30,438 nucleotides of DNA, from IMG/VR virus record IMGVR_UViG_3300042924_002825, positions 1 through 30,438 of that record, one strand, 5' to 3'. The translations under genes and the position numbers were made by a program. This stretch comes from a virus. Positions 1 through 28,022 of the stretch are shown here, in pieces (position 1 is the first letter of the stretch; every line of letters begins with the position of its first letter). The notes below the pieces were generated by a model. It did no database searches and was not told the DNA's origin. It saw only the letters and a program-made list of their open reading frames with translations.

Positions 1-2145
1 GGCAACGCCTCAAACGTCCCGACCGTGACAGCCCTGACGGGTGACGTGACAGTCAGCAATGCCGGGGTGACGGCGATTGGTACGGGCGTCATCGTGGACG
101 GCGACGTGAATGCCAGCGCCGCGATTGCCTTAAGTAAACTCGCCACGCAAGGCGCGCGCACTTTTGTCGCCAACAGCACATCATCCACTGCCGTTCCGAC
201 GGCTGTCTCCGTCGCCACGGCGCAGGGCATGGTCGGCCAGTTCGATACGGTGTCGGCGGTCAACAGCGCAACGATTGACGCAGGTATCAATCACATCCGC
301 ACGGCGGGCTATTACGCGACCGGCGACGGTGGCGGGGCGCTGTACAAGCGGGTGGCGTCAGGAGCTGCTGGTGCGGGTACGCCACGCATCACCTCGAACA
401 GTGCGGCGACCATCTGGGAACTCGACCTTGATACGGTCAATGTCCTGCAATTCGGTGCCTACAACAACGACACGAATGCGGCCACGACATTGAGCGCGTT
501 TCAGGGCGCGGCGGCATTTTCGAAGTCCGTGTATATTCCGCCCGGAACCTATCTGATTAGCGGGACGGTCACGGTCACGCTCAACGGCCAGAGGTGGTAC
601 GGGGACGGGTTTGACGCCTGCATCGTGAAGAGCAACAGCACGACGCTGCCCATGTTCACGATTACCGAATTTTTGAACAACACGGTCATCGAGTCGTTCA
701 GGCTCACGCGCAGTGTTACGGCCACCAGTGGCGCAAACGGCATCGACCTGCAAAACAAGGTTGTCGGACAAACGCGGTTTCAGAACCTTTTGGCCGAGAA
801 GCAATGGGACGGGTTCAGCATCGGGCCGACAGATTGGTCGGAAATTCTGGACTGCATAGCGCAGCAGAACCTGAACAACGGGTTTTACATCCGCAACAAA
901 AACACGGCGGCGGCAACCAGCGGGCCGTGCCAGTGGAACCTGACCAACTGCCTCTCCCAAATGAACACTGCGCGCGGGTTCTTCTTTCAGACGCAGACCG
1001 GCCCGTCGCAAATGATTGTCGGCCCCTTGAAGATGTGCGCCACGTTTGGCAACAGCGGTGTTGGTGTCGGATTCGTTGGCAGCGCAACAGTGCCCATCAA
1101 CGACGCCCGCATATTTGGAGGGTTCTACGGCTCGGACGGAAATTCCGAACTGTACCTTGACACCTACGGCGACCAGATTCTCATTCAGAACTGCTTCCTT
1201 GAGCGGTCGGGCCTTGACCCGACAGGCCCGACACTGGCAACGCCTGCATCAAACCTGGGTTCTGGCCTTGAACTGACGGTCAATAACACGGGCGCAATCA
1301 TCAACAACGTCCATAGTTATGACAACAGCCAGGACGGCATTGCGTCATCGGCCACCAAGATAACGGTGACCGGCAGTCGCTGCGACAACAATGGCCGGGC
1401 GTCCGGCGCAGGGCGGCGCAATGGTGTCTACGTTGTCGCCGGGCGGGCCACAATTACCGGCACCATTTGCGGAAATACCAGCGGCTCGCCGCAATCGTTC
1501 GGCATTCGCTGCGCCGACGGGAATAACGTCACTGCAATCGGTTGCGACCTGAACGGCAACGGCACGTCGAGCTTTGACATCACGTCCAACGCCAACAGTC
1601 TGACGGTGGTGGGCTGCCTGCCCAATACGCTGAACACGGAAATTCCCATCCTTCAGGTCAATGCCGGGAGTGCAACAGCGCCCAGCATCACGACGGACAG
1701 CGACCTGAACACGGGGATTTATTTCCCGACGGCTGACACCGTTGCAATTACAACCGCCGGTGCAAAAAGATTCAGGGTTGCGTCAGGCGGAAATGTCGGC
1801 ATTGGAGCCTTGAACGACACTCCTGGCGCGACAGGTTTTAATGATTTTCTTGCCTTCAACACAAATGGCTCTGGATTTGGGGCCATTGGCGACCTGACGA
1901 AAATTGTTGGCATCGCAACCGATAGCGTCGAGCGCATGAGAATTGACGTGACCGGCAATGTTGTCATCAACACAGCCGCTCTGGCAACGACGGCGACCGA
2001 TGGGTTTCTGTATGTGCCGACATGTGCCGGAACGCCAACGGGAACGCCGACGACGTACACAGGTCGCGCTCCCATCGTGGTCAACACGACGAACAACAAG
2101 CTCTATTTTTACAGCGGAGGGGCGTGGCGTGACGCAGGGCCGTAA
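1..2145 (+). CDS. Tailspike / tail fibre protein, 5'-truncated by window edge
   Basis: The reading frame is open from base 1 and a GTG at 25 is not a convincing start, so the gene begins before the window. The N-terminal visible part (GDVTVSNAG, SATIDAG) resembles the low-complexity stalk of phage fibres. The middle has the typical entry to a right-handed beta-helix, 'QFGAYNND' followed by 'VYIPPGTYLISG', as in pectate-lyase-like tailspikes. It continues with many N/G/T-rich short strands. The C-terminal part (SITTDSDLNTGIYFP, FRVASGGNVGIG, NNKLYFYSGGAWRDAGP) is a common fibre tip ending. The likely role is host surface recognition, possibly with glycan cleavage. No catalytic residues can be assigned from sequence alone, and no S74 autocleavage domain is apparent. 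It lies directly upstream of the packaging genes. Confidence 0.8.
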   Translation, partial: GNASNVPTVTALTGDVTVSNAGVTAIGTGVIVDGDVNASAAIALSKLATQGARTFVANSTSSTAVPTAVSVATAQGMVGQFDTVSAVNSATIDAGINHIRTAGYYATGDGGGALYKRVASGAAGAGTPRITSNSAATIWELDLDTVNVLQFGAYNNDTNAATTLSAFQGAAAFSKSVYIPPGTYLISGTVTVTLNGQRWYGDGFDACIVKSNSTTLPMFTITEFLNNTVIESFRLTRSVTATSGANGIDLQNKVVGQTRFQNLLAEKQWDGFSIGPTDWSEILDCIAQQNLNNGFYIRNKNTAAATSGPCQWNLTNCLSQMNTARGFFFQTQTGPSQMIVGPLKMCATFGNSGVGVGFVGSATVPINDARIFGGFYGSDGNSELYLDTYGDQILIQNCFLERSGLDPTGPTLATPASNLGSGLELTVNNTGAIINNVHSYDNSQDGIASSATKITVTGSRCDNNGRASGAGRRNGVYVVAGRATITGTICGNTSGSPQSFGIRCADGNNVTAIGCDLNGNGTSSFDITSNANSLTVVGCLPNTLNTEIPILQVNAGSATAPSITTDSDLNTGIYFPTADTVAITTAGAKRFRVASGGNVGIGALNDTPGATGFNDFLAFNTNGSGFGAIGDLTKIVGIATDSVERMRIDVTGNVVINTAALATTATDGFLYVPTCAGTPTGTPTTYTGRAPIVVNTTNNKLYFYSGGAWRDAGP

Positions 2146-25399: not shown

Positions 25400-25436
25400 G
25401 TCACCCCCACGTCAGCCACTGATTAATCAGCGACAC
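25400..25436. repeat. 37-bp direct repeat, copy 1
   Basis: This matches 26162-26198 at 36 of 37 positions (difference at 25419, C against T). It contains the 12-bp palindrome CTGATTAATCAG (25419-25430). It ends 3 bases upstream of the -35 element at 25397. It also contains the stop of the 75-aa gene. Confidence 0.8.
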
Positions 25437-25650
25437 GGTTGCGCTTTGAGGCCGCAAGCAGTTTTTGCAGCAGGGCAATGCGGGCGCGCACTAGGGCGTG
25501 CAACTCGTCCTGCAAGCCTTCCGGGGGTTCGTGCGTTCCCGCCACCCAGCGGCGCATGGTGCGGTCGCTGACGCCCAAGTCACGGGCCAGCGCGGATTGA
25601 AAAAGAGGCCCGTAAAGGGCCTCTCCCACTTTTATCAGGTCGCCTCGCAT
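25423..25650 (-). CDS. Small HTH DNA-binding protein (75 aa)
   Basis: The product has a clear helix-turn-helix at residues 17-40 (FQSALARDLGVSDRTMRRWVAG), followed by THEPPEGLQDELHAL, a layout seen in Cro-like and other small phage repressors in which 'P-P-x-G' follows the recognition helix. The C-terminal helix (IALLQKLLAASKRN) may dimerise. ATG 25650 overlaps the upstream gene's stop in TAATG. The 37-bp repeat runs into its stop codon. It is one of two HTH proteins in this region, so the two may form an opposing pair, as in Cro/repressor switches, but the orientation is the same for both. Confidence 0.75.
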   Translation of the reverse strand: MRGDLIKVGEALYGPLFQSALARDLGVSDRTMRRWVAGTHEPPEGLQDELHALVRARIALLQKLLAASKRNRVAD

Positions 25651-26161: not shown

Positions 26162-26198
26162 GTCACCCCCACGTCAGCCATTGATTAATCAGCGACAC
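26162..26198. repeat. 37-bp direct repeat, copy 2
   Basis: This is the partner of 25400-25436 (36 of 37 identical). It begins 9 bases upstream of the -35 at 26153 and also encodes the last residues of the 60-aa membrane protein. In copy 1 the matching frame, which is not the frame of the 75-aa gene, would read the same ATVSLINQWLTWG then stop. Confidence 0.8.
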
Positions 26199-26345
26199 CG
26201 TCGCCCCAAAGCTAGAAATGGCCATGGCGCACAGAAAGCACCAGAAGACAAAGAACGGCCAGACGCTGGCGCAGGCGTGGTCCAGGCGCTCCTCGCGGGT
26301 TCTCGCCCAGCCCTGCGGCGGGCGCTTCAAGACCCGGCGGCTCAT
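26163..26345 (-). CDS. Small membrane protein (60 aa)
   Basis: The product has a basic N-terminus (MSRRVLKRPPQGWARTREERLDHA), then a single hydrophobic segment VWPFFVFWCFLCAMAISSFGA and a short tail VSLINQWLTWG. Its ATG overlaps the stop of the 39-aa hydrophobic protein upstream (ATGA), so the two form a pair. Small membrane proteins near the att site or control genes of temperate phages often affect superinfection or host membranes; that is only a suggestion. No family is recognised. The end lies within the 37-bp repeat. Confidence 0.6.
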   Translation of the reverse strand: MSRRVLKRPPQGWARTREERLDHACASVWPFFVFWCFLCAMAISSFGATVSLINQWLTWG

Positions 26346-26461
26346 GGCGTGCCCACCGCAATGAACACCGTGACCAGAATGGCCAAGGCAGCGGCAAGGT
26401 CAAAGACGAATACGGTGACAATCACAATGCCGCGTGCTACGCGGCCAATAGCCTGACGCAT
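26342..26461 (-). CDS. Very small hydrophobic protein (39 aa)
   Basis: ATG 26461 has a GAGGT just upstream with a normal spacer, and the frame ends in ATGA at the next gene's start. The product is mostly hydrophobic: MRQAIGRVARGIVIVTVFVF, then a helix of A, L, V and I to the end (FIAVGTP). One long or two short membrane helices are possible. It would be made together with the 60-aa membrane protein. I see no known family; a small toxin-like or signalling membrane peptide is possible but unsupported. Confidence 0.5.
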   Translation of the reverse strand: MRQAIGRVARGIVIVTVFVFDLAAALAILVTVFIAVGTP

Positions 26462-26482
26462 GGTTACCTCATGTGTGGGTTA

Positions 26483-26518
26483 GGGCCGGGTTCGGTGTTG
26501 GTAGCACCGGCTCGGCCC
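26483..26518. other. Two-part stem-loop near attP
   Basis: GGGCCG (26483-26488) pairs with CGGCCC (26513-26518), and CGGTG (26493-26497) pairs with CACCG (26505-26509) around a 7-base loop. On the minus strand it would lie in the leader of the 39-aa gene. No T-run is next to it, so it is not an obvious terminator. Confidence 0.5.
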
Positions 26519-26575
26519 GCTTCGTTTGAAGCCCTGTCACCCTACATTCCAGACGTGAACGAATCGGAAAACTTG

Positions 26576-26594
26576 TTCGGGACTATTTCGGGAC
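26576..26594 (+). other. attP arm-type repeat, left
   Basis: TTCGGGACTATTTCGGGAC holds two TTCGGGAC units and matches 26794-26812 at 18 of 19 positions, same orientation. The two lie on either side of the tRNA-Pro core at about 97 and 65 bases. This is the layout expected for the arm sites bound by the N-terminal domain of a tyrosine integrase. Confidence 0.6.
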
Positions 26595-26643
26595 TCCTAT
26601 GCAGGTCGTGTCCTGTTCGTTCTCGTTTTTGCAAGTTTGCGTC

Positions 26644-26672
26644 TTGTGTGCATGTTCCAAAAAGCCTAAGAA
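26644..26672 (+). promoter_or_regulatory. Promoter-like sequence upstream of the tRNA-Pro fragment
   Basis: TTGTGT (26644-26649), 17-base spacer, TAAGAA (26667-26672), ending 18 bases before the tRNA 5' end. After integration it would be placed upstream of the restored tRNA gene. Match to consensus is moderate. Confidence 0.35.
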
Positions 26673-26690
26673 CTGCGCCATTCCAGCCGT

Positions 26691-26729
26691 CGGGGCGTAG
26701 CGCAGTCTGGTAGCGCATCTGGTTTGGGA
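26691..26729 (+). other. attP core: 5' half of a tRNA-Pro(TGG) gene
   Basis: The 39 bases match the start of alphaproteobacterial tRNA-Pro: acceptor strand CGGGGCG, D-arm TAGCGCAGTCTGGTAGCGCA, the 5' anticodon stem and the complete loop with anticodon TGG (26725-26727). The match stops exactly at the loop's 3' side; the following GCAAG is not the expected stem, and no T-arm (GGTTCGA) occurs. It is therefore not a working tRNA gene. It sits beside the 3' end of the integrase gene, which identifies it as the attachment core. Crossover in the anticodon loop is usual for tyrosine integrases. The tRNA match is from memory of the family. Confidence 0.8.
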
Positions 26730-26748
26730 GCAAGAAGTTGCTGACCCG

Positions 26749-27840
26749 TTAAGCCTTGTTTTTCATAGGCTTGGTGACCACCGGCTTAATTCCTTCGGGA
26801 CTATTCCGGGACACAACAGCAGCCATCGCAGCCCGAACGTCGTCAATCATCGCGTGGGCATAGCGGGCCGTGGTGGCGATATCCCGGTGGCCCAGAAGGT
26901 TCTGAACCACCTTCAGGTTCTGGCTGGCCCTGAGCGTCCGTGTGGCGGCGGTGTGGCGCAAGTCGTGAAACCGGAAGTCGCTTATCCCTGCCTGCGTCAA
27001 GGCCCGTTCCCAAGCCCTTCGCCAGCCCGTCTGGGTGAAGGGGTGCCGTTGCCCTTTCCGCCTTCCCTGCCGACCCCTGACCACTTCGTAGGTGAAGACC
27101 CGTTCCTTGTGGTTTCCCCGTTCGGCTGACAGCAGGGCGACCAGTTCGGGAATAAGGGGTACGAAGTGAACCTCGCCCCCTGGCTTCTTGGACTTGACCA
27201 GTAGGCGAATGACGCCCGCGTCAAAGTCCACCTGACCCCATGTCAGTTCGATTGCGTTCCTGAGCCTTACCCCCGTTATCAGGGCAAAGCGAACCAATGG
27301 GTGCAAATCCTGCCGCAAGGCTTCGAACAGCCTTTGCTCTTCCCCCGCCGTCAATTCCCGCACGCGCCCTTGCGGCTCGCGCAGCATGAAGTCCGTCCAG
27401 TTTATGGTGGGGCAGTCGGCCTGCCAGACCTTCTCGGCCCTGCGCATCATGCGGCGCAGGACTTCCAGCTCGCGGTTCACCGAAGCGTCGGAAACTTTCG
27501 CCCGCCTCTTGGCGATATAGACCGCCAACATGGGGCCGTCGATATCGTGCAGCGGCGTTTGAAGTCCAAGCCCCGTGCATAGGTTGGCAAGCTGGTATTC
27601 GGTGGTTTTCGAACTGGGCTGAAACTTGGCGACTTCGGAGAAATAGCGTTCGGCGGCTTTGTCCAGTGTCAGGCTTGGTTTTCGTCGGCTTGCGCCTTCG
27701 GCTGCGTCGAGGCGGAGGCGGGCTTCGACGGCTTCCGCCGCGCGGCGAGACGTTGTGCCCGTGCTGCCATGAAGCCGCCGACCGTTGACAACGAAGTCAA
27801 AGTGCCAGTACGGCGAATTTTTGGGGCGATAGACGGACAT
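26749..27840 (-). CDS. int: Tyrosine integrase
   Basis: The 363-aa site-specific recombinase inserts and removes the phage genome. The N-terminus (RPKNSPYWHFDFVVNGRRLHGSTGTTSRRAAEAVEARLR) is the three-strand arm-binding domain. Residues ~55-155 form the SAM-like core-binding domain. The catalytic set is complete: R192 in ITGVRLRNA, K216 or K218 in the beta-hairpin, H292 and R295 in HDLRH, H318 in LLGHRD, and Y327 in TTARYAHA. The last codons lie next to the tRNA-Pro core, and codons 343-349 contain the right arm repeat. The excisionase-like gene upstream overlaps it by 172 bases. Confidence 0.95.
   Translation of the reverse strand: MSVYRPKNSPYWHFDFVVNGRRLHGSTGTTSRRAAEAVEARLRLDAAEGASRRKPSLTLDKAAERYFSEVAKFQPSSKTTEYQLANLCTGLGLQTPLHDIDGPMLAVYIAKRRAKVSDASVNRELEVLRRMMRRAEKVWQADCPTINWTDFMLREPQGRVRELTAGEEQRLFEALRQDLHPLVRFALITGVRLRNAIELTWGQVDFDAGVIRLLVKSKKPGGEVHFVPLIPELVALLSAERGNHKERVFTYEVVRGRQGRRKGQRHPFTQTGWRRAWERALTQAGISDFRFHDLRHTAATRTLRASQNLKVVQNLLGHRDIATTARYAHAMIDDVRAAMAAVVSRNSPEGIKPVVTKPMKNKA
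26794..26812 (+). other. attP arm-type repeat, right
   Basis: TTCGGGACTATTCCGGGAC differs from the left copy by one base. It lies inside the integrase gene, near its 3' end, so one sequence serves both as coding region and as probable arm site. Confidence 0.6.
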
Positions 27841-28022
27841 TGCCTGCGGGCCTCAATGAAAGCGTCGATGTCGGCTTGCGTGAATTTCCGGGTGCGCTTG
27901 CCGATAAGAACATAGCGAATGTCCCCGGCATTGACATGGGCCACAAGCGTGCGCGTGGATATGCCTAGCATTTCCGCCGTTTCTTCCATGTCAAACAGGA
28001 TACGCGCGGGCCTGACGGTCAT
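27669..28022 (-). CDS. Excisionase-like HTH protein (117 aa)
   Basis: The N-terminal ~60 residues (LFDMEETAEMLGISTRTLVAHVNAGDIRYVLIGKRTRKFTQADIDAFIEARR) are a MerR/excisionase-type winged helix, as in phage Xis proteins. Its place just upstream of the integrase fits. The last ~55 residues are encoded within the start of the integrase gene in another frame (172-base overlap); they are basic and alanine-rich (MAARAQRLAARRKPSKPAS) and may bind DNA non-specifically or be an overprinted tail. Start ATG/overlap with the upstream gene at GTCATG-type junction keeps it in the minus-strand operon. It may instead be a regulator. Confidence 0.75.
   Translation of the reverse strand: MTVRPARILFDMEETAEMLGISTRTLVAHVNAGDIRYVLIGKRTRKFTQADIDAFIEARRQCPSIAPKIRRTGTLTSLSTVGGFMAARAQRLAARRKPSKPASASTQPKAQADENQA

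Follow-up and report, generated by a model that had tools for sequence, protein, structure and literature searches.

According to the usual account, phages that integrate into tRNA genes leave the promoter of the tRNA to the host. The anticodon loop is reportedly one of the sublocations at which this integration takes place, as said to have been described by Williams in 2002. A review of integrating elements states that a restored tRNA is expressed from its original promoter, with very few exceptions (PMC8371274). The pTN3-like archaeal integrases depart from this rule, in that they use the 5' half of a tRNA gene as attB and the restored tRNA is cut from its original promoter, as is proposed for the locus described here (PMC5495485, PMC8371274). 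In these elements integration splits int, and expression of the tRNA is attributed to the promoter of the integrase (PMC5495485, PMC8371274). This 5'-half situation is seldom met in bacteria (PMC8371274, citing Williams 2002), and among the islands counted in the Islander database, 159 have a 5' fragment and 3760 a 3' fragment (159/3919; PMC4383910).

Here we describe a phage locus that carries a tRNA 5' half beside its integrase gene. The stretch of DNA that was analysed, hereafter the window, is the IMG/VR virus record IMGVR_UViG_3300042924_002825 with a length of 30438 bp. Positions 26576-26812 very probably form a complete attP, used by a tyrosine integrase whose target is the anticodon loop in the tRNA-Pro(TGG) gene, with the restored tRNA transcribed from phage DNA. 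The proposed order of its elements is P arm, tRNA-type promoter, tRNA 5' half, 7-bp loop crossover and P' arm in the end of the integrase gene (int). Integration would split the host tRNA gene at the anticodon loop, so that its own promoter and 5' half would stay next to int as a dead stub. At the opposite end of the prophage, the 3' half of the host gene would be fused to the promoter and 5' half brought by the phage, creating a complete tRNA gene that would be transcribed from phage DNA. A previous sequence-only reading had interpreted the locus in this way, and our analysis confirms the sequence features that it described and largely supports its interpretation, through relatives rather than through the window phage.

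The attP region of the window phage

The 5' half of tRNA-Pro(TGG) comprises the first 39 nt of the tRNA on the plus strand (26691-26729, CGGGGCGTAGCGCAGTCTGGTAGCGCATCTGGTTTGGGA), up to and including the anticodon loop. Annotated tRNA-Pro genes of rhizobial phages are 95-97.5% identical to it over 40 nt (best E 3e-8), and the match runs through the 7-nt loop TTTGGGA (26723-26729), with 26729 as its last base, exactly where the sequence-only reading had placed the end of the fragment. The Rfam tRNA model assigned the fragment 16.9 bits, which is under the cut-off of 29. The same loop on the plus strand is the predicted 7-bp crossover (overlap) region and attP core, at which cleavage would presumably occur; in relatives, the identity between attL and attR ends 0-5 bases from the anticodon loop. 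Folding of the tRNA stub with the downstream RNA was ordinary (z=0.42), and we therefore claim no structured stub RNA.

The tRNA half is located 20 nt from the integrase stop codon, between two 19-bp repeats. On the minus strand, int (26749-27840) encodes a tyrosine integrase of 363 aa (PF00589, E 1.4e-28; phrog_1, E 1.9e-60), whose catalytic residues R192, H292, R295, H318 and Y327 are invariant among 21 aligned sequences. Its start is overlapped by an excisionase-like gene on the same strand (27669-28022; phrog_66, E 1.9e-7; phrog_1840, E 1.8e-4). The window displays the features of the attP type, with lambda-type arms and core, that belongs to anticodon-loop tyrosine integrases, namely an R-H-R-H-Y domain, an identity that ends at the loop, and paired arm repeats. 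A regenerated complete tRNA gene, which is likewise expected of this integrase type, was seen in integrated relatives.

The P-arm repeat (TTCGGGACTATTTCGGGAC, 26576-26594) and the P'-arm repeat (TTCGGGACTATTCCGGGAC, 26794-26812, inside the 3' end of int) are direct repeats on the plus strand, identical in 18 of 19 positions at a distance of 218 bp. With up to 3 mismatches allowed, the 19-bp repeat occurs twice in the window, where 0.02 occurrences are expected. The P arm consists of two 8-bp units with a spacing of 11 bp, which are putative arm-type integrase sites. Near-identical flanking repeats had been reported before and are indeed present, but not all four units are exact as had been stated: three are exact copies of TTCGGGAC, and the fourth, with a mismatch, is TCCGGGAC. 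In a close relative (L003), all four units are exact. Arm positions are nearly constant: in most phages with a 5' half, ~95-100 nt separate the left arm and the tRNA, and the right arm lies ~60-64 nt past the core. The arm sequence differs among phages (TTCGGGAC, TCCGTGT, GTGGGTG and others) and is alike on the two sides of one phage. For 19 phages, we determined the best 19-mer common to the left and right arms and used arms swapped between phages as control; the mean match was 16.8/19 within one phage and dropped to 13.8 after swapping (p=1e-4 by permutation), the Hoeflea phage of G007 being an exception with 12/19. This covariation matches the prediction of co-evolution with an arm-binding domain and, together with the fixed positions on both sides, favours the proposed role of the repeats as putative sites bound by the integrase.

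A second record, IMGVR_UViG_3300044619_000982 (35 kb), is 100% identical to the window over 26622 bp (window 3817-30438), and it meets the other end of the window as well, with 100% identity over 505 bp (1-505). The overlap at both ends indicates a circular or permuted genome of ~38.3 kb, so the tRNA fragment of the window is an internal attP and no junction with host DNA. To the left of attP, the window also contains a 43-bp direct repeat (25400-25442 and 26162-26204, 93% identical). A search for relatives through the beta-helix protein (window 1-2145) returned weak matches only.

The 39-nt piece might instead be a non-functional relic left by a past recombination event, or a tRNA fragment that strayed there, and no part of a working att site. 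Such a reading would fit the absence, among the genomes scanned, of a lysogen of the window phage or of one with an integrase more than ~50% identical to that of the window, and it would fit the count of zero exact 39-mer attB sites in 385 alphaproteobacterial genomes. However, L003, which is ~90% identical to the window over shared regions, has kept all 39 nt of the tRNA unchanged, paired arms flank the piece, and its place and end point recur in many relatives with verified junctions. We consider a relic very unlikely.

Relatives and their integration sites

Relatives were collected by integrase scans of viral contigs, genomes and isolated phages, and the comparison covered 36 of them whose tRNA half was readable. 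Just past the int stop codon, many members of this integrase clade carry a tRNA 5' half that points to int and extends as far as the anticodon loop, the tRNAs used in this way being Pro(TGG), Pro(GGG), Pro(CGG), Val(TAC) and Arg(TCT). In the isolated phages VSN-002, Ssp-JY40, RHph_I3_18 and Mvi-Yong1342-1, an arm pair is followed by the predicted promoter, the 5' half and an arm pair at the end of int. The promoter-bearing 5'-half arrangement proves to be common to a family of related alphaproteobacterial phages.

Several of these loci are of interest in their own right. The annotated telomere resolvase of Sphingopyxis phage VSN-002 (L149, 2501-3619) belongs instead among the tyrosine integrases of this clade, and its attP is standard. 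Synechococcus phage Ssp-JY40 (L150) and Microcystis phage Mvi-Yong1342-1 (L155) are recorded as cyanobacterial, and their tRNA-Val and tRNA-Pro 5' halves and promoters resemble those of alphaproteobacteria; their true hosts may be alphaproteobacteria that accompany the cultures. Near the int 3' end of IMGVR_UViG_3300047160_011492 (L114), a tRNA-Arg(TCT) 5' half is present with a complete tRNA-Pro a few hundred bases further out.

Ten relatives were found integrated, in Sphingomonas montanisoli (G001), Novosphingobium (G002), Hoeflea (G007), Sphingosinithalassobacter (G010), G017, G044 and four further Hoeflea genomes. On the int side, all ten show upstream DNA of the host followed by a broken 5' half, and at the distal end a complete tRNA gene (ARAGORN) behind phage DNA, with arms ~100 nt upstream; the two junctions are on different contigs in G001, G002, G427 and G431. 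A clade integrase was also found beside the broken copy in three of the four further Hoeflea genomes, and none was found there in G436. In the six pairs measured, the attL/attR identity blocks are 42-66 bp long and cover the 5' half. The flanks of the Hoeflea G007 prophage, when joined, are contiguous in the congeners G430 (84%) and G423 (80%), which represent the empty site. These ten sets of junctions are those predicted by the sequence-only reading for an attP that keeps the tRNA 5' half, and among the relatives no junction was found elsewhere. We infer that the window phage would integrate in the same way.

The rebuilt genes in the relatives also bear on another explanation, according to which the tRNA gene would be disrupted on integration and compensated by a complete phage tRNA encoded elsewhere. 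Lysogeny of this kind is known in actinobacteriophages (PMC10865867), but ARAGORN found no complete tRNA gene in the window and none is present in the overlapping 35-kb record, and the relatives rebuild the tRNA gene. The chance that disruption and compensation apply here is close to negligible.

In G001, G002 and G044 the only tRNA-Pro(UGG) detected is the copy joined to the phage, and the same holds for tRNA-Val(UAC) in G010 (by pattern search of draft assemblies, from which divergent tRNA-Pro(UGG) copies could escape). As tRNA-Pro(UGG) is generally essential and its single detected copy is joined to the phage, phage DNA is very likely the source of its expression in the living lysogens G001, G002 and G044. 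This supports the proposal that the phage supplies the promoter. As a separate observation, the tRNA-Pro(GGG) gene of Hoeflea is a hot spot among 18 genomes (G007, G421-G437), with 5'-half splits in five and 3'-type splits 11-15 kb apart in at least two (G421, G437).

Other members of the clade carry the 3' half in the same place and in mirror orientation, from Gly(CCC), Arg(TCT), Pro(TGG) and Pro(GGG), and three tRNA genes serve in both polarities. A tree of 36 integrases does not unite the members with a 3' half in one clade (AU p=0.0003) and requires at least 2-3 changes, which indicates that polarity has switched more than once within the integrase clade. The anticodon stem-loop is palindromic, so that either orientation of the half fits the same core, and this may explain the switching.

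The predicted promoter before the tRNA half

The motif TTGTGT-N17-TAAGAA, previously pointed out at 26644-26672, is present as written. In our analysis, the predicted phage-borne promoter of the tRNA type lies on the plus strand at 26643-26671, with a -35 element CTTGTG (26643-26648), a spacer of 17 nt and a -10 element CTAAGA (26666-26671), and ends 19 nt before the tRNA start. Its position agrees with that found in the relatives and with that of the native tRNA promoters of hosts. A scan with the E. coli sigma-70 model found nothing at the site, and alphaproteobacterial and host-trained models were therefore used instead. The host-trained model was built from host promoters only, with 20000 random windows of the same genomes as background, and gave p=0.0018 for the window promoter against this genomic background; the literature consensus for alphaproteobacteria gave p=0.095 against shuffles.

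With the host-trained model, 11 of 13 phage sides had p<0.05, with a combined Fisher value of 2e-18 that is optimistic because the sequences are related. Sides with a 5' half outscored the 3'-half controls (Mann-Whitney p=0.0012), which were not wholly negative themselves (3/6 arms with p<0.09; Fisher 0.03, optimistic for the same reason). L136 was marginal with this model, and L121 showed no clear promoter (p=0.14). With the literature consensus, the likewise optimistic combined p values were 3e-9 for phage sides (14 loci), 4e-18 for native host tRNA promoters (25) and 0.52 for 3'-half control arms (6).

The Hoeflea lysogens (n=5) provide a comparison with the promoters of their own hosts. 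Conservation among these phages is 0.86 in the 45 bp before the tRNA versus 0.71 in the preceding stretch. In four of the five, these 45 bp are 78-87% identical to the host's own promoter, and the next 45 bp upstream show 27-58% identity with the host. The fifth pair, shifted by a 1-nt indel, has 47% identity without gaps. It looks as if the promoter of the Hoeflea phages was captured along with the tRNA 5' half. The enrichment before 5' halves and this homology to host promoters strengthen the earlier suggestion of a phage-supplied promoter, which we predict to be active.

Two other readings of the promoter region need to be considered. If the 5'-half attP is real and the tRNA is read through from upstream phage transcription, the promoter-like elements would be there by chance. 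The weak score of the window promoter under the literature consensus and the case of L121 are in line with this, but the elements are enriched at the right place in 13 phages, those of Hoeflea are homologous to host promoters, and the 3'-half controls score lower; read-through as the source of the tRNA thus appears unlikely. A promoter used mainly for antisense RNA over the int 3' end, with tRNA supply as a secondary role, is quite unlikely. The promoter faces int in convergent orientation, as the tRNA stub does, and no terminator or terminator-like site was found between stub and int on the plus strand in 26400-27000, all of which such a role would accommodate. Yet promoters are weaker in the 3'-half members, based on six controls only; there a phage promoter is not required for any tRNA, although int would profit equally from antisense RNA.

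A promoter that primarily serves the restored tRNA, as we favour, may be combined with an effect on int into one wider scenario, which is speculative and, taken as a whole, rather doubtful. It would consist of a captured host cassette, flipping enabled by the palindrome, tRNA expression coupled to the integrase, and antisense transcription into int. The cassette would comprise ~45 bp upstream of the tRNA through to the anticodon loop, and one integrase clade would flip between the promoter-bearing 5' half and the 3' half of the same tRNA genes via the palindromic core. In 5'-half lysogens, the phage promoter of an essential tRNA would lie near the integrase arm sites, and occupancy of these sites and tRNA expression may be coupled. 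In the free phage, the same promoter would run antisense into int.

Comparison with described systems

The locus differs from the pTN3-like elements in that int remains whole and is convergent with the tRNA half, and a separate predicted tRNA-type promoter lies between the P arm and the core. A suicidal integrase of the pTN3/SSV type was considered and rejected, given that the core is situated 20 nt past the int stop codon and only the P' arm overlaps int. Sinorhizobium phage phiLM21 is, among others, a 3'-half relative that targets tRNA-Pro(GGG) and restores the gene (PMC5537653, PMC12429752); its integrase is related, with 37% identity. The actinobacteriophages with tRNA-dependent lysogeny resemble the present case in using a host tRNA gene as site and in making the phage answer for the tRNA supply; they differ in that the gene stays unrestored and compensation comes from a whole tRNA encoded by the phage, whereas the relatives studied here restore the gene (PMC10865867). 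Paracoccus phage Pben1 was examined as a possible misread 5'-half case and dismissed: its shared site is 20 bp long, it has its own complete tRNA-Val, and its integrase is remotely related.

For the annotation of such prophages, a simple rule is to look near the 3' end of int for a tRNA 5' half directed towards it, and for a complete twin at the far end. The phages described here are repeated natural cases in which the promoter of a seemingly essential, single-copy tRNA appears to come from a phage. They are therefore a good system for studying the origin of promoter-bearing attP sites, polarity flips and the effect of lysogeny on tRNA supply.

The 5'-fragment islands of Islander share with the present locus the crossover in the anticodon loop, the displaced 5' fragment and the complete tRNA at the other end (PMC4383910). 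The text consulted makes no mention of promoters (PMC4383910), whereas the clade described here consists of integrases with mostly 5' halves and has a predicted promoter in the att site. An attP of the 5'-half kind is thus rare but already known, and the evidence for a promoter supplied by the phage is better than that described in the literature compared.
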